A DNA stretch of 64,000 nt, from NCBI RefSeq assembly GCF_025264645.1, contig NZ_CP073696.1:3906001-3970000 (forward strand). Direction: 5' to 3'. Both the position numbers and the translations under genes were made by a program. Source of the stretch: Edaphobacter lichenicola (GTDB lineage Bacteria > Acidobacteriota > Terriglobia > Terriglobales > Acidobacteriaceae). Under the pieces are notes generated by a model. It was not told the origin of the DNA. It did no database searches and saw nothing but the letters and a program-made list of their open reading frames with translations. Of the stretch, positions 52,219-62,738 are shown one piece after another (within the stretch, counting starts at the first letter, position 1; each line of letters opens with the position of its first letter).

Positions 52219-53013
52219 ATGCAAACCTGGATCCCCGCCTCGCGCAACTTCGCCTATCTCAATTGGAAGCAGGTTGAAGCTCTGCCCAAAGATCACACCC
52301 TGCTCATCCTGCCCACCGCCGCCATCGAACAGCACGGTCACCACTTGCCGCTCGCCACTGACACTCTCATCAACAATCTCCTCCTCGGCAAATCCCTCGA
52401 AAAACTCCCGAACGACGCCCCCATCTACGCACTCCCTCCCGTCTGCTACGGCAAGAGCAACGAGCACATCGGCTTCCCCGGCACACTCTCTGTCTCCGCC
52501 TCGACCTTCATGGCCGTCATCCGCGACCTCGGCTCCAGCATCGCGTCCGCAGGGTTCAAAAAACTCGCTCTCTACAATACCCACGGCGGCAACTCCTCTC
52601 TCGTCGACGTTATGGCTCGCGATCTCCGCGCCGAGTTCAACCTCCGCGTCTTCTGCCTCTACGGCTCTGCCGGCGCATCATTCACCGGTTTAAACAAACA
52701 GGAAAAAACCTACGGCTTCCACGCTGGAGAGATCGAAACCTCTCTCCTCCTCGCCTCGACGCCGTCGCTAGTCGACACCACCGCTTACACCACCAACTAC
52801 ATCGCCGACATCGAACACCCCGAGCTTCTGCTCCCGGAAAACGCCTCCGCCACCTTTGCGTGGCTTACACGCGACATAGCCCCCAGCGGTGTCATGGGCG
52901 ATCCAACTCACTCCACCGCAGAAAAAGGCGAGCTTTGGATCGAAGAGGCCACCACTAAAATCGCCGCTGCCCTAGAAGCCATGTTGAAGTACGAAAACCA
53001 CCAGAAGCTTTAG
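52219..53013 (+). CDS. Creatininase-family amidohydrolase
   Basis: The 264-aa enzyme carries the metal motif IEQHGHHLPLATDT (Glu37, His39, Asp48), the YNTHGGN block (about 119-125) and FHAGEIETS (His168, Glu171/Glu173), the signature of creatininase, FAPy deformylase (ArfB) and MftE relatives. It opens cyclic amides or removes acyl groups. AAGGAG overlapping the preceding stop codon sets the start at 52219. Substrate not known; creatinine itself is only one option. Confidence 0.92.
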   Translation: MQTWIPASRNFAYLNWKQVEALPKDHTLLILPTAAIEQHGHHLPLATDTLINNLLLGKSLEKLPNDAPIYALPPVCYGKSNEHIGFPGTLSVSASTFMAVIRDLGSSIASAGFKKLALYNTHGGNSSLVDVMARDLRAEFNLRVFCLYGSAGASFTGLNKQEKTYGFHAGEIETSLLLASTPSLVDTTAYTTNYIADIEHPELLLPENASATFAWLTRDIAPSGVMGDPTHSTAEKGELWIEEATTKIAAALEAMLKYENHQKL

Positions 53014-53135
53014 CCACGAGGTGAAGATGGCAGTCGATCCCAAAGCAATACCAGAACCAACACAACAAACGCGAGCCTACGACCCGACCAACGGGAGGAC
53101 CGCAAAAGGTCATCGCCGCACAACAAGGTACACAC

Positions 53136-53181
53136 GCCACGAAGTGGCCGCCCCACGCGAAGTGGGCCCGTCCGGCAGGAC
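53136..53181 (+). repeat. Multi-hairpin intergenic repeat, short form (copy R1)
   Basis: A 46-bp unit of three mini-hairpins: GCCAC-GAA-GTGGC, CCCAC-GCGAA-GTGGG and GTCC-GGCA-GGAC. The first stem differs from other copies (GTCAC/GTGAC) by a paired change. An 18-mer (CCGACCAACGGGAGGACC) at 53084-53101, shared with 58823-58840, lies upstream. The next gene's ATG is only 12 bp after the repeat, so the repeat is in its leader. Confidence 0.85.
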
Positions 53182-53193
53182 AACATTACCCAA

Positions 53194-54906
53194 ATGACCA
53201 AGCCCCACATCGATTGCGGACAAGGCATCCACCTCCAACGCGCCGTCCCCTGCACGCTCTCCGACGGCACCATCCTCTACTCCGACCACTACCACCCCGC
53301 AAAACCCGGCCCACACCCCACCCTCCTCATGCGCCAACCCTACGGCCGCGACATTGCCTCCACCGTCGTCTACGCCCACCCAGTCTGGTTCGCCCGCCAC
53401 GGCTACAACGTTGTCATCCAGGACGTCCGCGGACGCGGCGACTCCACCGGAGACTTCTACCCCTTCCGCCACGAGCAGCAGGACGGCGTCGAGACCATCG
53501 CCTGGCTCCGCACCCTCCCCGAATCGAACGGCAAGATCGGCATGTACGGCTTCTCCTACCAGGGCATGACCCAGTGGCTCGCCGCCGCCGCCCAACCTGA
53601 AGGGCTCCTCTGCATCGCACCCACCCAAACCGCGCACGACCTCTACCGAGGCTGGTTCTACAACCACGGCGTGCTTCGATTAGCGTCATCCTTAGGCTGG
53701 GGCCTGCAGATGCTCAAGCAGGACGCCCGGCGCCTCCAACTCCGCGAAGCCAGCGACGCCCTCGAACGCACATGGTCATCGCTCTCCTCACAGATCCTCC
53801 ACACCCCAACCGCAACCCATCCTGCAATCAACGCCGAAGGCCTTCCAACCTACGTCACCGACTGGCTCCATCACGATCACCCCGGCAACTACTGGTCGCA
53901 GATGGACATCAGTACCAGCGCAGAAAAAATAAACGTCCCCGCCCTCCACATCTCCGGGTGGTACGACACCTACCTGCAAGGCAGCATCACCGGCTTCCGC
54001 GAAATATGTAACCGTGCTGGTTCGCAGCACGCCCGCGACAACCAATACCTCCTCGCCGGTCCCTGGATTCACATTCCCTGGGGCAACCGCATCGGCACAC
54101 AAAACTTCGGCCCCACCGCAAACCTCGACACCGACGCCCTCCACCTACGTTGGTTCAATCACTGGCTCAAGGACTCCGGCGAATTCTCCACCGAGCCACG
54201 AATCCGCTACTTCGCCCTAAACCAAAATCAGTGGCGCACCGCCGCAAAATGGCCCACTAACAACCATACCCTCTACCTCCACAGCGAAGGCCGCGCCAAC
54301 TCCAGCAAAGGCGACGGCGTCCTCACCTCCGCAGCGCCACAAACAAACGAACCTCCGGACATCTTCGTCGTAGACCCCGAAGTCCCCGTCATCGCTCCCG
54401 GAGGCATCACATCCGCCACCGGCTGCCACAATCAATCCGCACTCGAACTCGGCAATAACCTCCTCATCTACACCACCGCGCCATTCACCGCATCACTCCA
54501 CATCTTCGGCACCCCTGCAGTTACGCTCAACGCAACTACCTCCGCGCCCTTCGCCGACCTCGTCGTAAAACTCGTCTGCCTCCGCCCCAACACCGACGCC
54601 GACTTCATCTGCATCGGCGCCGCCCGCAGCACACACCTCTTCGCAACTACATACAAACCCGACACACCATACAAATGGCACTTCGAACTTGAGTCCACCT
54701 CCTGGGTCTTTCAACCCGGCGAGTCCCTCCGCATCGAGATCGCCGGCAACGCCTACCCCCTCTATGACCGCAACCCCGGCACCGCAACTCCACCATCAAA
54801 GGCCACCTCGTGGGACTGGCAACGCTCCACCCACATGATCCACCACGATCCCGCAAGTCCTTCAGCCATCCACCTTCCGGTCGTTGAAGAAATGGCGGGC
54901 CAATGA
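53194..54906 (+). CDS. CocE/NonD-type alpha/beta hydrolase (peptidase S15 family)
   Basis: The 570-aa protein has an S15 hydrolase core with nucleophile Ser121 in GMYGFSYQGM, Asp258 in ISGWYDTYL, His293 in GPWIHIPWG, and a C-terminal jelly-roll (XPD C-terminal) domain from about 380. Relatives cleave esters, acyl-peptides or Xaa-Pro bonds. No signal peptide is seen, so it is cytoplasmic and may act on an imported substrate. It follows repeat R1 and overlaps the ATPase gene by 4 bp. Confidence 0.92.
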   Translation: MTKPHIDCGQGIHLQRAVPCTLSDGTILYSDHYHPAKPGPHPTLLMRQPYGRDIASTVVYAHPVWFARHGYNVVIQDVRGRGDSTGDFYPFRHEQQDGVETIAWLRTLPESNGKIGMYGFSYQGMTQWLAAAAQPEGLLCIAPTQTAHDLYRGWFYNHGVLRLASSLGWGLQMLKQDARRLQLREASDALERTWSSLSSQILHTPTATHPAINAEGLPTYVTDWLHHDHPGNYWSQMDISTSAEKINVPALHISGWYDTYLQGSITGFREICNRAGSQHARDNQYLLAGPWIHIPWGNRIGTQNFGPTANLDTDALHLRWFNHWLKDSGEFSTEPRIRYFALNQNQWRTAAKWPTNNHTLYLHSEGRANSSKGDGVLTSAAPQTNEPPDIFVVDPEVPVIAPGGITSATGCHNQSALELGNNLLIYTTAPFTASLHIFGTPAVTLNATTSAPFADLVVKLVCLRPNTDADFICIGAARSTHLFATTYKPDTPYKWHFELESTSWVFQPGESLRIEIAGNAYPLYDRNPGTATPPSKATSWDWQRSTHMIHHDPASPSAIHLPVVEEMAGQ

Positions 54907-55697
54907 CGACCCCGCCAATCACTGTCCCCGTCATCGCCTTTGACCGCGCCACCAAGCGCTACCCCGCCTCCAAAGGCGCGACCGCAACCGTCCTTGAATC
55001 CATCACCACCCAGGTCCAACGCCGCGAGTTCGTCAGCATCATCGGCCCCTCCGGCTGCGGCAAATCCACCCTCCTCAAGATGGTCGCCGGCCTCAGCCCC
55101 GTCACCACCGGCGACATCGCCATCCACGGCATGACTCCGCAGAAAGCCCGCGAGCTAGTCTCCTTCATCTTTCAGGACGCGACTCTCCTCCCATGGCGCA
55201 CCGTCCGGCAAAACGTCGTCCTCGGCCTCGAGCTCGACGGAATGGCTCGCGAGACCCGCACCGCCAAAGTCGACGCGGTCCTCGCCCTCGTCGGTCTCTC
55301 TCACGTCGCCGACTCCTACCCTCGCCAGCTCTCCGGCGGCATGAAGATGCGCGTCTCCATCGCCCGCGCGCTCGCCACACGCCCCCAACTCCTCCTTCTC
55401 GACGAGCCCTTCGCCGCCCTCGACGAGATGACCCGCGACCGCATCAACGAAGAGCTACTCCGACTCCGCGAAGAGCAGAACTGGACCGCCCTCTTCGTCA
55501 CGCACTCCGTCGCCGAAGCGGTCTTCCTCTCCACTCGCATCCTGATCCTCGCTCTCACACCCGGACGCATTGCACACGACATACCCATCGATCTACCCTT
55601 CCCACGCACCGAAGCCACTCGCCGCAGCGAAGCATTCGACCGCACCATCGCCGCCGTCTCTCGAGCCCTAAGAGGAGTGACCCATGCAACGAACTAA
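54903..55697 (+). CDS. ABC transporter ATP-binding protein (SsuB/TauB-like)
   Basis: The 264-aa ATPase has Walker A GPSGCGKST, Q-loop FIFQDATLLPW, signature LSGGMKMRVSIARA, Walker B LLLLDEPFAALD and the switch His in FVTHSVAEAV. This subfamily powers nitrate, taurine, sulfonate and pyrimidine importers, in line with the NMT1-type receptor upstream. The ATG overlaps the S15 stop by 4 bp. Repeat R2 separates it from the permease gene. Confidence 0.95.
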   Translation: MTTPPITVPVIAFDRATKRYPASKGATATVLESITTQVQRREFVSIIGPSGCGKSTLLKMVAGLSPVTTGDIAIHGMTPQKARELVSFIFQDATLLPWRTVRQNVVLGLELDGMARETRTAKVDAVLALVGLSHVADSYPRQLSGGMKMRVSIARALATRPQLLLLDEPFAALDEMTRDRINEELLRLREEQNWTALFVTHSVAEAVFLSTRILILALTPGRIAHDIPIDLPFPRTEATRRSEAFDRTIAAVSRALRGVTHATN

Positions 55698-55723
55698 TCA
55701 TCACCACAAAACAAAGTACACAA

Positions 55724-55811
55724 GTCACGAAGTGACCGCCCGAACCGGGGTCCCCGCAAACAGGTCTTCGTTTGCGGGGTGGCAGAGCGCAGTGGGCCCG
55801 TCCGGCAGGAC
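55724..55811 (+). repeat. Multi-hairpin intergenic repeat, long form (copy R2)
   Basis: An 88-bp version: the outer GTCAC-GAA-GTGAC and GTCC-GGCA-GGAC hairpins are kept, and the middle is replaced by a longer hairpin, CCCCGCAAAC/GTTTGCGGGG with an 8-nt loop. It is nearly identical to copy R5. It lies inside the presumed transporter operon, between ATPase and permease. Confidence 0.9.
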
Positions 55812-55850
55812 AAAGAGTCTCTCAACCAACAAAAAAGAGGATCACTGCAA

Positions 55851-56642
55851 ATGAAAAAATTAGGACTAACCCTCCTCTCCGCCGCAGCAATCTTCGGATG
55901 CCTTCTCCTCCTCTGGCAGTCCATCATCTGGATCTTCGCCTTGCCGCCCTACCTTCTCCCCTCGCCCACCCGCGTCTCCCATGCCGTCATCGCCCGCTTT
56001 CCCTCTCTCATGACATCCCTAGGAATCACCGCAGCAGCAGCAGCCGGAGGCCTCCTGGCCGCTCTTATCGCAGGCCTCATCATTGCACTTATCTTCGCGC
56101 AATCCCCTTGGATCCGCCGCATGTTCTACCCCTACACCATCCTTCTCCAGACCGTCCCCATCGTCGCCATCGCCCCCATGATCCTCCTCTGGATGGGCCC
56201 AGGCCTCGGCTCGGTCACTCTCATCGCATTCATCATCTGCCTCGCCCCCATCATCGCCAACGCCACACAAGGCCTCATCAGCGTCGACCGCAACATGGTC
56301 GATCTCTTCCTCATGCACAACGCCTCACGCGCACAACTCCTGCTCAAACTCCGCCTCCCCCACGCCATGCCATCGCTCTTCACCGGCATCCGTATTGCCA
56401 GCGGTATCGCAGTCATCGGAGCCATCACAGGCGAGCTCTTCGCCGGCTCTTCCCGCGTCGGCGTCGGCGGTATCGGCTACGCCATCCAATACGCCAACGC
56501 GCAACTCGAGACCGACTACCTCTTCGCCCTCGTTCTCGCAGCCACGATCCTCGGCTTTGCCTTCTTCTTCACCGTAATGTTTCTGGAGTGGTACTTCCTT
56601 CACAACTGGCACGAATCCGCTCGGGCCGTAGAGCAAGATTGA
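55851..56642 (+). CDS. ABC transporter permease (SsuC/TauC-like)
   Basis: The 263-aa protein has about six membrane segments (including LGLTLLSAAAIFGCLLLLW, GLLAALIAGLIIALIF and LFALVLAATILGFAFFF). The cytoplasmic EAA-type loop that docks on the ATPase lies near SRAQLLLKLRLPHAMPSLFT. The start at 55851 is set by the conserved N-terminus and AGAGG upstream; the frame is open back through the R2 repeat, but that part is not protein-like. It completes the importer with 49253 and 54903. Confidence 0.92.
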   Translation: MKKLGLTLLSAAAIFGCLLLLWQSIIWIFALPPYLLPSPTRVSHAVIARFPSLMTSLGITAAAAAGGLLAALIAGLIIALIFAQSPWIRRMFYPYTILLQTVPIVAIAPMILLWMGPGLGSVTLIAFIICLAPIIANATQGLISVDRNMVDLFLMHNASRAQLLLKLRLPHAMPSLFTGIRIASGIAVIGAITGELFAGSSRVGVGGIGYAIQYANAQLETDYLFALVLAATILGFAFFFTVMFLEWYFLHNWHESARAVEQD

Positions 56643-56743
56643 TCATATTACGTTACAAATTACCCGTGCCCCAACGTTGAAAAAGATCTTTATCAGTTAC
56701 ACATAGCTAAGAGATTCGAAATCACAAAACAGAAAGGCCCAAC

Positions 56744-57571
56744 ATGTTGCGTCTGGAGACAGAAACCGGCTGGTGGCTCGTCACCCACCCCGACCACGCC
56801 AATCTAGCTGGTGCCTTCGCCACCCACTGGGGCAATGCCGTCTTCGCCCCGCCCGAACCCCGCACCAACGTCCTACTCGGCATTCACGTCCACGACGACG
56901 GCTGGGCTCTCCGCGACGCCGCCCCCACCATCACAAAACAGGGCAAACCATCCGCCTTCTCGTCAGAACTCGTCGGTAAATACTCGGCCTTCGAAGAGAT
57001 CGACCTCGCCGACTACCTCGCCGTCCGCGAGCGCGCCGTCCAACAGATCGCCGCCAAAGACGCCTACGCCGCCCTCCTGGTCTCCATGCACACCTACAAC
57101 CTCCTCACCGCCCGCGCAGACCGCACCACCATCGCTCCCGCACAACTCCCCCTCCTCGACGACTTCCTCGCCCGCCAGCAAACCCTGCAAGACACCCTCC
57201 GCACAACCATCCAATCCACCGCCGCCTCAGCCGAAGCCACCGACGAAGCCATCACAGATCAAATCCAGGACAACTTCCGCCTCCTCCAGGCCACCGACAA
57301 CCTCTCCCTCCTCACCTGCGTCGACTACGCCGCTCCCGCCACCCTCCTCCACCCCATGCGCAAAACCAACGGCACCCAAAGTGAAATCCAAGTCGAGCCA
57401 CAAGGCAACCGCACCTTCCGCCTCACCCCCTACCCCTTCGCCGAACCAACCCTGACCCTGACCTTCCCCGCCCGCCACATCACCGGCAAAACCTTCACCA
57501 CCTCCGCCGAACTCCAACATCAATTCGCCAAAGCCCCGGTCGAACACCTCACCGTAACCATCCACTCCTGA
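56744..57571 (+). CDS. DUF3891 family protein
   Basis: The 275-aa cytoplasmic protein has DUF3891 blocks: ETGWWLVTHPDHANLAGAFA, GIHVHDDGW and VSMHTYNLLTA. The spaced His/Asp residues (H-x-H-D-D) suggest an HD-like metal site, though no activity is established. It is separated from the permease by 101 bp containing an AT-rich stretch, so it probably has its own promoter. Confidence 0.85.
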   Translation: MLRLETETGWWLVTHPDHANLAGAFATHWGNAVFAPPEPRTNVLLGIHVHDDGWALRDAAPTITKQGKPSAFSSELVGKYSAFEEIDLADYLAVRERAVQQIAAKDAYAALLVSMHTYNLLTARADRTTIAPAQLPLLDDFLARQQTLQDTLRTTIQSTAASAEATDEAITDQIQDNFRLLQATDNLSLLTCVDYAAPATLLHPMRKTNGTQSEIQVEPQGNRTFRLTPYPFAEPTLTLTFPARHITGKTFTTSAELQHQFAKAPVEHLTVTIHS

Positions 57572-57678
57572 ACCCTAAGCCAGAGCCTACCCCTGAGCCA
57601 TCCTTTACAGACTCCCCTCTCATTGACGATGATGTTAGGGCCGGACGCACCCCCTCCGGCAGTTATGGGGAATCAACA

Positions 57679-58707
57679 ATGAGCACAGGCACCAGCGTCC
57701 TACGCGAAACACTCACCCAGATCATCGGCGCCGACCGCACCGAGCACCTCTTCAAGCTTCTCGTCATCCATCCCGAGATCGCGGCCGACCCCGGCCCGCA
57801 GGTCTCCCGCGCCGTCCTCGCCCAGGCCCTCAACATGCTTCTCTTCGAAGACCTCCTCGTCCGCGTCCCCACCGCCAAAACCTACGCCGACTACACCCTC
57901 AGCAAGGGCCGCCAGATCCTCCACGACCACGGCGCCGTCCGCACCGTCGCCCTCAACGGCATGGGTGGCCTCCCCGCCGGACAAGAGGCCATCACCCGCA
58001 TCCTCCGCCCCCTCGGCTACGCCCTCAACGGCGTCTACCCGCTCGAGCGCCTCAAGATGACCGGCCGCTCTCACGCCCAGGCCGACTACCCCGAAGAGAT
58101 CGCCCAGTTCTTCCTCAGCGAGCTTCACCCCGAGCGCTTCTCACCCGAGTTCCAGGCCGCCGTCCGCCGCGTCACCGCCACCTCAAAGGACCCCATCACC
58201 CCCGAAGCCAACGCGCTCCTCAACAAACTCGACTCAACCCATTCCCTCAGCATCGAAGAGTCCGTAAAGCTCCTCCCCGTCCTCGCCTCCGTCTTCGAGC
58301 GCCAGCACATGGAGCCCGCCCTCACCGACTACGAGATCCTCCTCGCCGAATCTCCCGAGATGGCCTGGATCTCCACCGAAGGCAACGCCTTCAACCACGC
58401 CACCGACCGCGTCCCCGACGTCGACCAGCTCGCCGAAGAACAAAAAGCCCTCGGCCAACCCATGAAGGCCGCCGTCGAAACCTCGCAGTCCGGCCGCGTT
58501 CGACAGACCGCCTTCCTCGCAGCCAAAGTCCAGCGCAAGTTCCACACACCCGAAGGCGCGCTCGTCGCCAAAGAGGTCAACGGCTCCTTCTACGAGTTCA
58601 TCACCCGCCTCCCGCTCCCCGAAGAAGACGGCAAAAAGCTCGACCTCAGCTTTGACAGTAGCAACGCCCAGGCCATCTTCAAGATGACCGCCACAGGCAA
58701 AGCCTGA
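57679..58707 (+). CDS. 2-oxoadipate dioxygenase/decarboxylase (HglS/YdcJ, DUF1338)
   Basis: The 342-aa protein matches the DUF1338 family, whose characterised member HglS converts 2-oxoadipate to D-2-hydroxyglutarate in lysine breakdown. Candidate iron ligands are His84 in HDHGAVRTVALNG, His240 in GNAFNHATDRV and Glu306 in GSFYEFITR. Further blocks are GMGGLPAG, KMTGRSHAQADYPEE and FFLSELHPERFS. The next gene encodes a YdiJ-type dehydrogenase, which fits as the enzyme that would oxidise D-2-hydroxyglutarate. Start at ATG 57679. Confidence 0.88.
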   Translation: MSTGTSVLRETLTQIIGADRTEHLFKLLVIHPEIAADPGPQVSRAVLAQALNMLLFEDLLVRVPTAKTYADYTLSKGRQILHDHGAVRTVALNGMGGLPAGQEAITRILRPLGYALNGVYPLERLKMTGRSHAQADYPEEIAQFFLSELHPERFSPEFQAAVRRVTATSKDPITPEANALLNKLDSTHSLSIEESVKLLPVLASVFERQHMEPALTDYEILLAESPEMAWISTEGNAFNHATDRVPDVDQLAEEQKALGQPMKAAVETSQSGRVRQTAFLAAKVQRKFHTPEGALVAKEVNGSFYEFITRLPLPEEDGKKLDLSFDSSNAQAIFKMTATGKA

Positions 58708-58713
58708 CGCCAT

Positions 58714-58759
58714 GTCCTGCCGGACGAGCCTCCTGCGCGGAGAGCGGTCACTTCGTGAC
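58714..58759 (-). repeat. Multi-hairpin intergenic repeat, short form, inverted (copy R3)
   Basis: The reverse complement gives GTCAC-GAA-GTGAC, a middle hairpin CTCC-GCGCA-GGAG, and GTCC-GGCA-GGAC. The middle stem differs from R1/R4 in sequence but still pairs. It starts 6 bp after the HglS-like stop and faces R4. Confidence 0.8.
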
Positions 58760-58794
58760 TCGTATACCGGACGCGACAGGATAATCTGCAACAC

Positions 58795-58838
58795 TCCTCC
58801 CGTTGGTCGGAATCAGCATATGCCGACCAACGGGAGGA
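58795..58838. repeat. Perfect 16-bp inverted repeat between R3 and R4
   Basis: TCCTCCCGTTGGTCGG and its exact reverse complement flank a 12-nt loop (AATCAGCATATG). With R3 and R4 outside it, the whole 58714-58912 stretch is a nested palindrome. Its right arm recurs upstream of R1 (53084-53099). Confidence 0.95.
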
Positions 58839-58866
58839 CCAAGTTTCAGCGAGACAAGGGACACGC

Positions 58867-58912
58867 GTCACGAAGTGACCGCCCCACGCGAAGTGGGCCC
58901 GTCCGGCAGGAC
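58867..58912 (+). repeat. Multi-hairpin intergenic repeat, short form (copy R4)
   Basis: A 46-bp copy with GTCAC-GAA-GTGAC, CCCAC-GCGAA-GTGGG and GTCC-GGCA-GGAC. It is identical to R1 except for the paired change in the first stem, and lies 77 bp before the YdiJ-like ATG. Confidence 0.9.
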
Positions 58913-58989
58913 ACAATCTTTCACATCCTTGTTAAGTCTTCATATCCCCCACCTCCAAACGCACCACTCGCAGCCGTATAGTGAGCAGT

Positions 58990-61935
58990 ATGTCCACCTC
59001 CCCCTTCGTCGTGCTGCCGAGCTCCCACGCCCGCGCCGTCGACACCTTCCCCGCCTCCGACGAGCTCTGTCAGCTCCTGCAAGAGCAGATCCGCGGCGAA
59101 GTCCGCTTCGATCCCGCCTCCAAGGCCCTCTACGCCACCGACGCCTCCAACTACCGCCACGTCCCCATCGGCGTCGTCATCCCACGCGACGAAGAGGACG
59201 TAATCAACACCGTAGCTCTCTGCCGCCGCTTCAACGCGCCCCTCCTCACCCGCGGCGCAGGCACCTCCCTCGCCGGCCAGGGTTGCAACTTCGCCGTCAT
59301 CCTCGACTTCTCCAAATACATGAACGGCATGGACGCGATAGACACCGTCAATCGCACGGTGAAAGTCCAGCCCGGCATCGTCCTCGACCGCGTCCGCGAC
59401 GAAGCAGAAAAATTCAACCTCACCTTCGCCCCTGACCCCGCCACGCACAGCCGCTGCACCATCGGCGGCATGATCGGCAACAACTCCTGCGGCGTACACG
59501 CCCTCATGGGCGGCAAAACCGTCGACAACATCCTCACCCTCGACCTCCTCCTCTACGACGGCACCCGCCTCACCGTTGGCCCCACCACCGAAGCCGAACT
59601 CGCCGCTCACATCGGCGCCGGCGGCCGCACCGGCGAGATCTACGCCACCCTCAAAAACATTCGCGACACGTACGCCGCAAAGGTGCGCGAAAAATTCCCC
59701 AACATCCCCCGCCGCGTCTCCGGCTTCAACCTCGACGAGCTCCTCCCCGAAAACTCATTCAACCTCGCCCGCGCCTTAGTCGGCAGCGAAGGCACCTGTG
59801 CCATCATCCTCGGCGCCACCCTCCAACTCGTCGAATCCCCACCCTGCCGCACCCTCATCGGCGTCGGCTTCTCCGACATCTTCATCGCCGCCGACCACGT
59901 CACCCAGATCCTCCAGTACAAACCCATCGGCCTCGAAGGCATGGACGGATACCTCCTCGACGCCCTTCGCCGCAAACAAAAATCCGTCGCAGACCTAGCG
60001 CTCCTCCCACCCGGCGACGGCTTCCTCATCGTCGAGTTCGGCGGCTCAACCCAGGCCGAAGCCAACGCCAAAGCCCGCGCCCTCGCCGCCTATCTCAAAA
60101 CCCTCAGCCCCGAGCCCAACACCCGCATCTACACCTCCGCCGAAGCCAAGCGCGTTTGGCACATCCGCGAGTCCGGCCTCGGCGCAACCGCATTCATCCC
60201 CGGCGTCGGCACCGGTTGGGAGGGATGGGAAGACGCCGCCGTCGATCCCACCCAGCTCGGCAGCTATCTCCGCCAGATCGCCGCGCTCATGAAGGAGTTC
60301 AACTACCGCAGCGCCATGTACGGACACTTCGGCCAGGGCTGCGTCCACATGCGTCACAACTTCGACCTCGAAACCCCCGCCGGCATCCTCAAGTTCCGCC
60401 AGTTCATGGACCTCGCCGCCGACATCGCCCTCGCCCACGGCGGCTCCCTCTCCGGCGAACACGGCGACGGCCAGGCCCGCGGCGCGCTCCTCCCCAAGAT
60501 GTTCGGCCCCGAACTCATGGACGCCTTCCGCTCCTTCAAGCGCGTCTTCGACCCCAACAACCGCATGAACCCCAACAAGCTCATCGACGCGCACGAGCCC
60601 CACGAAGACCTCCGCCTAGGCGCCGACTACCGCCCGTGGCAGCCCAAAACCCACTTCGCCTTCGCCGAAAACAACGGCAGCTTCGCCGACGCCAACCTCC
60701 GCTGCGTCGGCGTCGGAGCCTGCCGCAAAACCGACGCCGGCACCATGTGCCCCAGCTTCATGGCCACCGGCGAAGAGCTTCACTCCACCCGCGGCCGCGC
60801 CCATCTCCTATGGGAGCTCATGCAAGGCGAGATCCTCCCCGATCAATGGAAGAACAAGCAAGTCAAAGAGTCCCTCGACCTCTGCCTCGCCTGCAAAGCC
60901 TGCAAGTCCGAGTGCCCCGTCTCCGTCGACATGGCCACCTACAAAGCCGAGTTCCTCGCCCACCACTACGAAGGAGAGAACCGTCCGCTCTCGCACTACG
61001 CCTTTGGCCGCATCGACATCTTCGCCCGCATCGCCAGCCACGCCCCACATCTCGTCAACGCCATCAACAACGCCCCCATCCTCCGCTCCATCGTAAAAAA
61101 ACTCCTTCACATCCACCCCAACCGCACCTTCCCACGCTTCTCCCAACCTTTCACTCCCGACCGCCGCCTCGCCCGCGATCCCCGCCGCCGCCGCGACCGC
61201 CGCATCCCCCTGCCACCCGAAGCACCCGAGGTCTTCCTCTGGGCCGACACCTTCAACAACTACTTCCATCCCTCCGCCATGCGCGCCGCCCATCAGGTCC
61301 TCACCACCGCAGGCTTCCGCGTCACCCTCCCCACGCAACATCTCTGCTGCGGCCGCCCCCTCTACGACTTCGGCATGCTCGACACCGCCAAAGACTACCT
61401 CCTCAAAACTCTCGGCGCCCTCACCGCACAACTCCAGGCTGGCACCCCCATCGTCGTCCTCGAACCCTCCTGCGCCTCCGTCTTCCGCGACGAGCTCACC
61501 AACCTCTTCCCCCACGACCCACGCGCCGCAAAACTCCGCGACCAGACCTTCCTCCTCAGCGAGTTCCTCGTCAAACACGCCCCAAACTACAAGCCCCCAC
61601 AAATTGACGACAAAATAATCGTCCACGGCCACTGCCATCACCGCGCCACCATGGGCATGCACGACGAGCTGGCCCTCCTCCGCCTCACCGGGGCCGAAGT
61701 AGAACTCCTCGACTCCGGCTGCTGCGGCATGGCCGGCCCCTTCGGCTTCGAAAAAGACAAATACGACCTCTCGCAAAAACTAGGCGAGCGCGTCCTCCTC
61801 CCCGCCGTCCGCAACAAGTCCGTAAACACGATCCTCGTCACCGACGGCTTCAGCTGCGCCGAACAAATCACCCAGAACACCACCGCCAAACCCATGCACC
61901 TGGCCGAAGTCCTCGCCCAAAGAGCCGAACCATAA
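58990..61935 (+). CDS. FAD/Fe-S dehydrogenase, YdiJ (D-2-hydroxyglutarate dehydrogenase) type
   Basis: The 981-aa single chain has an FAD_binding_4 domain (LLTRGAGTSLAGQGCNFAVI, about 80-100; IGGMIGNNSCGVHAL), an FAD-linked oxidase C-domain (YGHFGQGCVHMRHNFD, GEHGDGQARG), and a ferredoxin-like region with two Cys clusters (CVGVGACRKTDAGTMCPS about 572 and CLACKACKSECP about 631). The CCG heterodisulfide-reductase-like domain carries LCCGRPLYDFG, CHHRA and DSGCCGMAG. The layout and size match YdiJ, a D-2-hydroxyglutarate dehydrogenase; D-lactate or glycolate dehydrogenases are alternatives. The start is ATG 58990; GTG 58981 is also open. Confidence 0.88.
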   Translation: MSTSPFVVLPSSHARAVDTFPASDELCQLLQEQIRGEVRFDPASKALYATDASNYRHVPIGVVIPRDEEDVINTVALCRRFNAPLLTRGAGTSLAGQGCNFAVILDFSKYMNGMDAIDTVNRTVKVQPGIVLDRVRDEAEKFNLTFAPDPATHSRCTIGGMIGNNSCGVHALMGGKTVDNILTLDLLLYDGTRLTVGPTTEAELAAHIGAGGRTGEIYATLKNIRDTYAAKVREKFPNIPRRVSGFNLDELLPENSFNLARALVGSEGTCAIILGATLQLVESPPCRTLIGVGFSDIFIAADHVTQILQYKPIGLEGMDGYLLDALRRKQKSVADLALLPPGDGFLIVEFGGSTQAEANAKARALAAYLKTLSPEPNTRIYTSAEAKRVWHIRESGLGATAFIPGVGTGWEGWEDAAVDPTQLGSYLRQIAALMKEFNYRSAMYGHFGQGCVHMRHNFDLETPAGILKFRQFMDLAADIALAHGGSLSGEHGDGQARGALLPKMFGPELMDAFRSFKRVFDPNNRMNPNKLIDAHEPHEDLRLGADYRPWQPKTHFAFAENNGSFADANLRCVGVGACRKTDAGTMCPSFMATGEELHSTRGRAHLLWELMQGEILPDQWKNKQVKESLDLCLACKACKSECPVSVDMATYKAEFLAHHYEGENRPLSHYAFGRIDIFARIASHAPHLVNAINNAPILRSIVKKLLHIHPNRTFPRFSQPFTPDRRLARDPRRRRDRRIPLPPEAPEVFLWADTFNNYFHPSAMRAAHQVLTTAGFRVTLPTQHLCCGRPLYDFGMLDTAKDYLLKTLGALTAQLQAGTPIVVLEPSCASVFRDELTNLFPHDPRAAKLRDQTFLLSEFLVKHAPNYKPPQIDDKIIVHGHCHHRATMGMHDELALLRLTGAEVELLDSGCCGMAGPFGFEKDKYDLSQKLGERVLLPAVRNKSVNTILVTDGFSCAEQITQNTTAKPMHLAEVLAQRAEP

Positions 61936-61947
61936 CAAGGTACGTAA

Positions 61948-62035
61948 GTCACGAAGGGACCGCCCGAACCGGGGTCCCCGCAAACAGGTCTTCGTTTGCG
62001 GGGTGGCCGAGCGTAGTGGGCCCGTCCGGCAGGAC
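61948..62035 (+). repeat. Multi-hairpin intergenic repeat, long form (copy R5)
   Basis: An 88-bp copy nearly identical to R2, with the same CCCCGCAAAC/GTTTGCGGGG insert hairpin. The first hairpin has one unpaired change (GTCAC/GGGAC). It starts 12 bp after the YdiJ-like stop and ends 55 bp before the next ATG. Confidence 0.9.
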
Positions 62036-62090
62036 AAAGAGATTTGCTACCCTAATCCCCAGTGTGAATCCCGTAGACGAGGTCCCATCC

Positions 62091-62738
62091 ATGCTCGACG
62101 TGCATCCCCCGCATGAACCTGTTCATGGCTGGCGCGACTTTCTGCTTCATATCCTGACTATTACCATCGGCCTCCTCATCGCCCTCGGCCTCGAAGGTCT
62201 CGTTGAATGGCGGCATCACCGCCACCTCGTCCACGAAGCAGAAGCCAGCCTTCACACCGAGATCGAAAGCAACGCCAAGGGCCTGCCCGACACCCTCGCC
62301 GCCCTGCACAAGAACCAGGCTGACCTCAAGCACGACGTCGAAGTCCTCAAATACATCATCAAAAATCACAAATCACCTCCGAGTGACAACATGACCATCA
62401 GCTACGGCATCCGCACCTTCGACGACGTCAGTTGGAAGACCGCGCAATCCACCACCGCCCTCTCCTACATGCCCTACGCCCAGGCCGAGGAGTACTCCGA
62501 CATCTACAGCCTCCAGGCCGAGCTCTACAACGCTGAGCAGCAGGCCGCCCGCGACGCCATCATCAGCCTCGCGCCCTTCATCAACACCAACGACAAAGAC
62601 CCCGACCCGACCGAGGGTCAGGCAAACGACATCAAACAAAAGATCGAGGTCCTCCAGGGCCAGCTCACTCTCGTCGACTCCTTCCTGAACTCCCTCGACC
62701 GTAGTTACAAAAAATTCCTCGCCGCCCACCCCAGCTAA
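62091..62738 (+). CDS. Single-pass membrane protein of unknown function
   Basis: The 215-aa protein starts with a basic/His-rich cytoplasmic stretch (HPPHEPVHGWRDF), then one membrane segment (LLHILTITIGLLIALGLEGLVEW, about 16-38) and a His/Arg turn (RHHRHLVHEAEASL). A long helical, probably periplasmic, domain with coiled-coil character follows (TLAALHKNQADLKHDVEVLKYIIKN). Proteins with this N-terminal layout recur in Acidobacteria; no function is known to me. ATG 62091 is chosen; GTG 62064 is in frame. Confidence 0.75.
   Translation: MLDVHPPHEPVHGWRDFLLHILTITIGLLIALGLEGLVEWRHHRHLVHEAEASLHTEIESNAKGLPDTLAALHKNQADLKHDVEVLKYIIKNHKSPPSDNMTISYGIRTFDDVSWKTAQSTTALSYMPYAQAEEYSDIYSLQAELYNAEQQAARDAIISLAPFINTNDKDPDPTEGQANDIKQKIEVLQGQLTLVDSFLNSLDRSYKKFLAAHPS

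Follow-up and report, generated by a model that had tools for sequence, protein, structure and literature searches.

REPINs are inverted doublets of repetitive extragenic palindromic (REP) sequences and are described as having a preferred spacing, a variable copy number, accompanying singlets and a less conserved spacer (PMC3116915). The CGTC-tagged REPs, as presented in PMC3733652, are mostly head-to-head dimers with an unpaired CGTC tag, stems of 8-9 bp beginning mostly with A/T and a CCA-like tail; that account gives no dedicated transposase for them, and Acidobacteria are not among the five phyla it names. The same source describes TIRYT transposases of Acidobacteria (Koribacter and others) with families of palindromic terminal inverted repeats (TIR). 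Class 3 HuH proteins of Acidobacteria, with hairpins carrying a CnGA foot and about 600 copies in Solibacter, are reported by Quentin et al. (PMC6006769), and REP counts for a Granulicella are given in PMC12306157. The literature search found no paper on the repeats considered here, a family of intergenic multi-hairpin elements with five copies in the window, a stretch of 64,000 nucleotides (positions 3906001-3970000) of the 5.66-Mb single-contig genome of Edaphobacter lichenicola (NZ_CP073696.1).

It is very probable that the element is REP/REPIN-like mobile DNA. As a whole, the observations are best explained by a REPIN-like non-autonomous mobile repeat, an explanation that appears reasonably probable; whether the mover is an HuH/Y1 enzyme is nearly balanced, with a slight lean towards doubt. 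The mobile origin is supported by the high and variable copy number, the preferred spacing, the near-strict Watson-Crick pairing, the dimers without target duplication, the replacement of whole hairpins and arms between genomes with near-identical flanks and the small number of copies in divergent gaps. The family is REPIN-like in build and behaviour and is not a member by test, as neither a GTAG foot nor an association with a REP-associated tyrosine transposase (RAYT) was found.

Copies in the Window

A preliminary description of the window had reported five copies, each folding into short hairpins. Sequence inspection and motif matching confirmed all five in the same places, and the short hairpins, as well as the 10-bp hairpin of the long forms, were found as described. 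The motif CCCGTCCGGCAGGACA with up to three mismatches matched five times in the window (mean of 0.94 in shuffled sequences, 0/100 reaching five), and so did RYCACGAAGTGRC with up to one mismatch (mean of 0.53, again 0/100). The whole-genome covariance-model search placed only these five copies within the window at E <= 0.001, in agreement with the earlier remark that none lies in the first 53 kb. The features are as follows.

53084..53098, + strand: box A (upstream hairpin) of copy 1, CC-GA-CC-AAC-GG-GA-GG with tandem G.A mismatches, exact match
53126..53182, + strand: core of copy 1, with GGTACAC, H1 (53136-53148), bulged H2 (53150-53167) and H3 (53170-53181)
55714..55812, + strand: copy 2, long form, with H1 (55724-55736) and H3 (55800-55811), no box A recognised
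55752-55779, + strand: 10-bp hairpin replacing H2 in copy 2, arms CCCCGCAAAC/GTTTGCGGGG
58713..58768, - strand: inverted core of copy 3, left arm of a head-to-head dimer
58793..58810, - strand: box A of copy 3, inverted, two mismatches
58823..58840, + strand: box A of copy 4 (15-nt hairpin at 58823-58837), facing the box of copy 3
58857..58913, + strand: core of copy 4, right arm of the dimer 58713-58913
61935..62036, + strand: copy 5, long form, with H1 (61948-61960, one mismatch) and H3 (62024-62035), no box A recognised
61976-62003, + strand: 10-bp hairpin of copy 5, part of the long form

The five copies form a local cluster of 9 kb (53126-62036), and the remaining 49 model hits are dispersed over the chromosome.

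Structure of the Half-Unit and Its Dimers

The half-unit is longer than previously reported and consists, in order, of box A, a linker, GGTATAC and the hairpins H1, H2 and H3. H1 has 5 bp and a GAA loop; H2 comprises GC, one bulged base and CNNC, with the loop GCGNA; H3 is GTCC-GGCA-GGAC. The 15-nt upstream hairpin, its preferred distance, the bulged base of H2 and the union of copies 3 and 4 in one dimer are additions to the preliminary description. The 10-bp hairpin of the long form occurs at four places in this genome (<=3 mismatches), all inside the element.

From this genome and its relatives, 244 entries were gathered; three are second endings of counted copies, which leaves 241 distinct copies. 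Some of these are orthologues in sister strains, hence not all are independent, and some box, linker, placement-sample and foot-tag counts rest on the 244 entries including the three duplicate endings. Enough upstream sequence for the scoring of box A was available for 238 of the 241 copies, and the 15-nt hairpin CC-GA-CC-AAC-GG-GA-GG, with its tandem G.A mismatches, was present in 177. It lies in the interval from -54 to -44 in 101 copies, against 1/232 shifted controls. Its inner pairs covary from CC/GG to GC/GC (84 and 17 of the 104 entries in this interval). The position of the GA of the box defines two linker classes, a long one (about -49, n=101) and a short one (about -34, n=76), and the short linker contains a mini-hairpin, for example CC-GAA-GG or GC-GAA-GC, by direct reading. 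No box A was recognised in 61 copies, a few of which are visibly damaged.

Twenty-nine head-to-head pairs lie within 250 nt of each other; two half-units together span about 200 bp, and the dimer ends are inverted (TGTCCTGCC...GGCAGGACA). The core-to-core gap is 70-72 nt in three short+short dimers, 82-84 in 13 short+long dimers and 97-101 in four long+long dimers, and ranges from 51 to 99 in nine dimers with an unclassed arm. Target duplication is absent from 27 of the 29 dimers, the other two showing matches of 2 and 3 nt. Among the distinct copies there are 183 singles and 58 dimer arms. A loose partner-box motif lies just upstream in 77 of the 127 boxed singles (a count made without a control), and part of the singles may thus represent decayed dimers.

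Beyond GGACA, the bases from +3 to +7 are pyrimidine-rich, with CTTT at +3 in 15/238 copies against a background of 0.24%. This signal is present in both the sense and antisense classes and is weakest in the 15 copies labelled '.E<'; where a gene ends at this point, the stop codon may contribute to it. Folds of single sequences are weak evidence, with z from -0.7 to -2.1 for eight DNA folds and from +0.6 to -2.4 for five RNA folds. Two of the single-sequence RNA folds suggested a long-range pairing of box A with the H3 region, which was rejected, as 17 of the 18 copies with a GC/GC box keep CCCGTCC at H3.

Base Pairing and Covariation

The covariance model was built from 42 short copies, in which 98.6% of cells are paired (89.5% in shuffles). 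Double changes occur at seven pairs, with 60 doubly changed cells against 15.1 in shuffles, and the covariation score is 0.284, compared with 0.102 for shuffles and at most 0.055 for slid versions; related copies enter these counts as if they were independent. H3 is nearly invariant, so the covariation rests on H1, H2 and the upstream hairpin.

A gapless 47-nt core was available in 215 copies, the rest being omitted for length or for lack of a flank. The 3225 cells of these cores comprise 3178 Watson-Crick, 15 G-T, 13 A-C and 19 other ones. For this genome by itself (37 copies), the count is 545 Watson-Crick cells out of 555, with three G-T and three A-C. The foreign loci were fetched by a pattern fixing much of H1 and H3, and the fair test is given by the two free pairs of H2, where 412 of 430 cells are Watson-Crick, four G-T and seven A-C. 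For comparison, 13 tRNAs from the collected loci contain 14 G-U among 284 stem pairs, and wobble is rarer in the element than in these stems (Fisher p = 1e-8); A-C counts are not comparable with those of the tRNAs, since the tRNA finder favours standard pairs. The scarcity of G-T pairs favours a hairpin acting at the level of DNA over one acting in RNA.

H1 occurs in eight perfect types, with 7/215 copies imperfect, and the four loop-side pairs of H2 in nine perfect types, with 19/215 imperfect. The two arms of a dimer share the H2 type in 7/21 cases (3.6 by chance, p = 0.037) and the H1 type in 15/21 (15.2 by chance). From this it is concluded that each half of a dimer mostly folds on its own.

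Copy Number and Distribution

The search of the 5.66-Mb chromosome with the covariance model gave 54 hits at E <= 0.001. The 3' motif GGGCCCGTCCGGCAGGACA with up to three mismatches was found 47 times (26 forward, 21 reverse), with no match for the reversed control. Related genomes were also positive: 25 of the 37 from the genus carried the element, with 1 to at least 89 hits per genome, and none of 24 outside the genus did. An order-wide sample with stricter filters contained 45 positive genomes out of 397, 36 in the genus and nine in four other genera of the family; the records carrying copies include Edaphobacter lichenicola, Granulicella sp., Terriglobus sp. and others. Within one genus, copy number varies widely from species to species; in genome G064 the 16-nt 3' end matched 273 times (<=2 mismatches), and the reversed pattern six times. 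The earlier proposal of a dispersed intergenic REP-like family with compensatory changes is thus supported genome-wide and in related species. A search for copies in phages or plasmids gave no match at E <= 1e-5.

A divergent sister family was found in G331, a genome of another genus, with 102 hits at E <= 0.01. By our own reading it lacks H3 and has H1 and an H2 with a similar bulge. G331 and G209 together gave 65 matches with a GAA loop, of which 55 pair well; their H1 types are GCCAC/GTGGC (31), GTCCC/GGGAC (17), GTCAC/GTGAC (4), CCCAC/GTGGG (2) and one mixed. The sister genus has 15 dimers with centres of 21-86 nt. Nine of these centres (L374, L380, L383, L386, L411, L413, L414, L422 and L424, in G331) contain long, strong hairpins (-25.9 to -48.4 kcal/mol), some with T-rich ends; the inner sequence of these hairpins differs among the copies and is still largely complementary.

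Placement Relative to Genes

Gene positions were taken from a simple purpose-made gene caller. Four of the 241 copies lie in divergent gaps, 33 in convergent gaps and six inside a predicted gene; the background gaps of 30-600 bp sampled in this genome comprise 113 co-directional, 25 convergent and 17 divergent ones. In co-directional gaps, 58 singles are sense and nine antisense (p = 7e-10), and in this genome alone 15 and 0. Of the singles with a 5' neighbour within 600 bp, 124/147 share its strand, as do 31/32 in this genome, for which the placement counts are free of orthologues. Gene direction is clear in nine of the 13 long+short dimers, and the short arm is the sense arm in eight of these nine. 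Where a dimer end faces an incoming gene (<=600 bp), it lies within 7 nt of the stop codon in 15/25 cases. In the window, the dimer of copies 3 and 4 starts 5 nt past a stop codon, copy 5 begins at the stop codon of its upstream gene, and copy 2 sits between two ABC-transporter genes, for an ABC ATPase and a permease.

An intrinsic terminator in sense orientation was rejected as an explanation, with no sense-strand match in 52900-62300; the nine antisense sites there compare with 8.7 in shuffles, and one of them is H1 of copy 2. As to replication strand, the copies seem by eye to follow local gene blocks (dnaA lies at 4.42 Mb).

Comparison with Described Repeat Families

Like the REPINs and RAYT-associated REPs characterised in PMC3116915, the repeats are short extragenic palindromes of high and variable copy number, with inverted doublets of preferred spacing, singlets beside the doublets and a less conserved spacer. 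The REP features found are the extragenic location, dispersal and high copy number. Unlike REPINs, the half-unit has three to four mini-hairpins, the GTAG/GTGG foot is absent and no RAYT was found beside a copy. As a hairpin foot at H1-H3, GTAG/GTGG was found in 28/215 copies on one strand and 1/215 on the other, and the 28 cases of GTGG are read here as the paired 3' arm of H1 and not as a tag.

The head-to-head dimers, the lack of a known transposase and the CCGTCC of the H3 region recall the CGTC-tagged REPs as outlined in PMC3733652. Unlike in those repeats, GTC lies here inside a 4-bp stem: CCGTCC is present at H3 in 201/215 copies, where GTCC is the stem itself, and no unpaired CGTC before a stem of 8-9 bp was found. 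With the hairpins of class 3 TnpA-Y1, so far as PMC6006769 describes them, the family shares the phylum, atypical weak hairpins and the potential for high copy number; it differs in that no class 3 gene was found near the copies in the collected loci. The TIR repeats of TIRYT transposases (PMC3733652) are likewise palindromic families of the same phylum, unlike which no examined Y1 gene is flanked by the present element. Both of these comparisons are by description. In Rfam, the window gave a single tRNA at the gathering threshold, and the dimer gave three microRNA matches far below it.

Search for a Mobilising Gene

The preliminary description had proposed looking for a RAYT gene flanked by the same repeat, and none was found. 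No copy lies within about 1.5 kb of any of 31 PF01797 loci (best E 0.11), which comprise 30 of the 39 hits in relatives, nine not being included, and the hit of this genome. Fifteen of 20 genomes of the genus have a PF01797 hit; those without one are the copy-rich G002, G014, G028 and G029, together with G011 (four copies), and G009, G012, G026 and G036 have hits and no copies found. A link with RAYT was rejected on the basis of the 0/31 PF01797 loci, the 0/397 other loci and the four copy-rich genomes negative for PF01797. The sole PF01797 hit of this genome, at about 935 kb (L044:1384-1785), is a weak one to a short, frame-broken RAYT relative. It adjoins a different palindrome, GGGGCTAAAGCCCC, which may represent another REP-like family of the genome.

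Box A has CCGA directly before its mini-stem in 125/178 boxes. Since box A is mostly of this kind and class 3 is reported from Acidobacteria with CnGA feet (PMC6006769), a class 3 TnpA-Y1 of the HuH type, from the Acidobacteria group whose genes are flanked by atypical hairpins, is the best lead to a mobiliser, and a lead is not a finding. That such an enzyme is the mobiliser seems unlikely: GCGA stands in 44/178 boxes, H1-H3 have other feet, and a strict motif scan of the collected loci, run with no positive control, gave one unconvincing match. PF01797, whose sensitivity for class 3 is not established, was negative in four copy-rich genomes.

Differences between Closely Related Genomes

Two genomes with flanks 97-99% identical were compared over 200 kb. 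Replacement of a whole hairpin and of a whole arm was observed between them at the 173-kb and 157-kb sites (L341/L351 and L340/L350). A dimer common to both has a right-arm H2 of CCAC/GTGG with the loop GCGTA in the first genome and of GCCC/GGGC with the loop GCGCA in the second; in another shared dimer, the left arm is different throughout and the right arm nearly identical. Another two dimers occur in only one of the genomes, at sites where the intergenic DNA differs throughout. At the site of the window dimer, four other species also have a dimer, with arms of another linker class or H1 type.

These differences are read here as exchange between copies. At the 173-kb site both sides of the stem and the loop differ at once, so copying from another repeat fits better than a single template switch. 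In the preliminary description, paired variation was taken to mean that the folded form is selected. Pairing is indeed kept; exchange between copies, however, contributes to the pattern, as near-identical genomes differ by a whole hairpin and a whole arm.

Evaluation of Alternative Explanations

Hairpin loops of the GNA/GNNA type are very stable in DNA. In the proposed mechanism, one strand of the element, when single-stranded, would fold as a row of mini-hairpins with such loops. An HuH-type enzyme that works on single strands would recognise the folded strand in trans and copy it to new sites, mostly directly behind genes, where damage would be least. Gene conversion between copies could then swap entire hairpins or arms, and this and the loss of broken stems would jointly keep the stems perfect. 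Singles retained in sense orientation may also have a secondary role at the 3' end of the mRNA. A more specific version, a RAYT-independent mobile DNA of Acidobacteriaceae read as single-stranded mini-hairpins, with the hairpins as interchangeable modules and conversion spreading compensatory changes with hardly any wobble intermediates, is a possibility that we hold only tentatively.

Several results weigh against mobile DNA of this kind. No mobiliser gene was found, and no Y1 transposase gene was seen beside any copy in the loci examined; a RAYT-like gene was absent from the 397 other loci (2.38 Mb including overlaps, far from all lying close to a copy) in a scan that recovered 28/30 positive controls. 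Singles follow gene direction, which a lagging-strand Y1 mechanism alone does not predict. There was no clean empty site, the intergenic regions without the element having differed throughout. Further pair types were not raised in the 42 copies (16 against 15.8 in shuffles). Non-Watson-Crick cells are fewer in sense copies (11/1515) than in antisense copies (11/540; p = 0.025), a small difference that hints at some constraint at the level of RNA. In the sister family G-T exceeds A-C (16 and 6, with 504 Watson-Crick and 50 other cells, the latter partly from misregister at the bulge), so the claim of missing wobble is weaker.

One alternative is a structured RNA of mRNA 3' ends, in which sense copies after the stop codon fold and protect or shape the 3' end and the DNA repeats are only carriers. 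The strand bias of the singles and the slightly better pairing of sense copies agree with it, as do the strong hairpins in 9/15 dimer centres of the sister genus, some with T-rich ends. Nevertheless, this explanation is improbable: wobble is scarce even at the free pairs of H2, dimers hold both orientations, one copy lies between two ABC-transporter genes, and neither an Rfam match to the element (window, dimer) nor a sense-strand terminator in 52900-62300 was found. Template switching at quasi-palindromes, with gene conversion, might instead keep the stems perfect in a family of inert debris. Template switching can, in the account of PMC8794818, give rise to compensatory changes of several bases; the changes here are nearly all Watson-Crick, close genomes differ in an entire hairpin and an entire arm, and the arms of dimers share H2 types somewhat above chance. 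This mutational origin is conceivable, if somewhat doubtful, as it leaves unexplained the hundreds of dispersed copies, the conserved loops, the preferred spacing and the bulge of H2 (seen in two genera by our own reading), and the change at the 173-kb site fits copying between repeats better. The inverted ends of the dimers could also belong to a miniature inverted-repeat transposable element derived by internal deletion from a DDE insertion sequence, with imperfect terminal inverted repeats of about 57 bp. This is very unlikely in view of the missing target duplications and the excess of singles over dimer arms, though some singles may be decayed dimers; furthermore, no transposase look-alike was seen by eye in the 25 largest protein clusters around 120 loci, 35 smaller clusters (<=2 members) not being viewed and no family search being run on them.

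The family is a warning case: both sides of a stem change and pairing is kept, as in textbook covariation, with hardly any wobble and with whole hairpins replaced between near-identical genomes. A covarying stem is thus not by itself proof of a functional RNA. As an orphan REP-like family of named bacterial strains, it also offers a setting in which to look for the mobiliser and for the role of hairpin modules.

Surroundings of the Window Copies

Copy 5 is adjoined by a predicted protein of 224 amino acids (62064-62738) with no Pfam match at E <= 0.001. By eye, coding strands in 53000-62300 and in sampled slices of the genome seem rich in C over G. The GC skew of the sampled slices is strongly variable and, by eye, apparently tracks gene direction.

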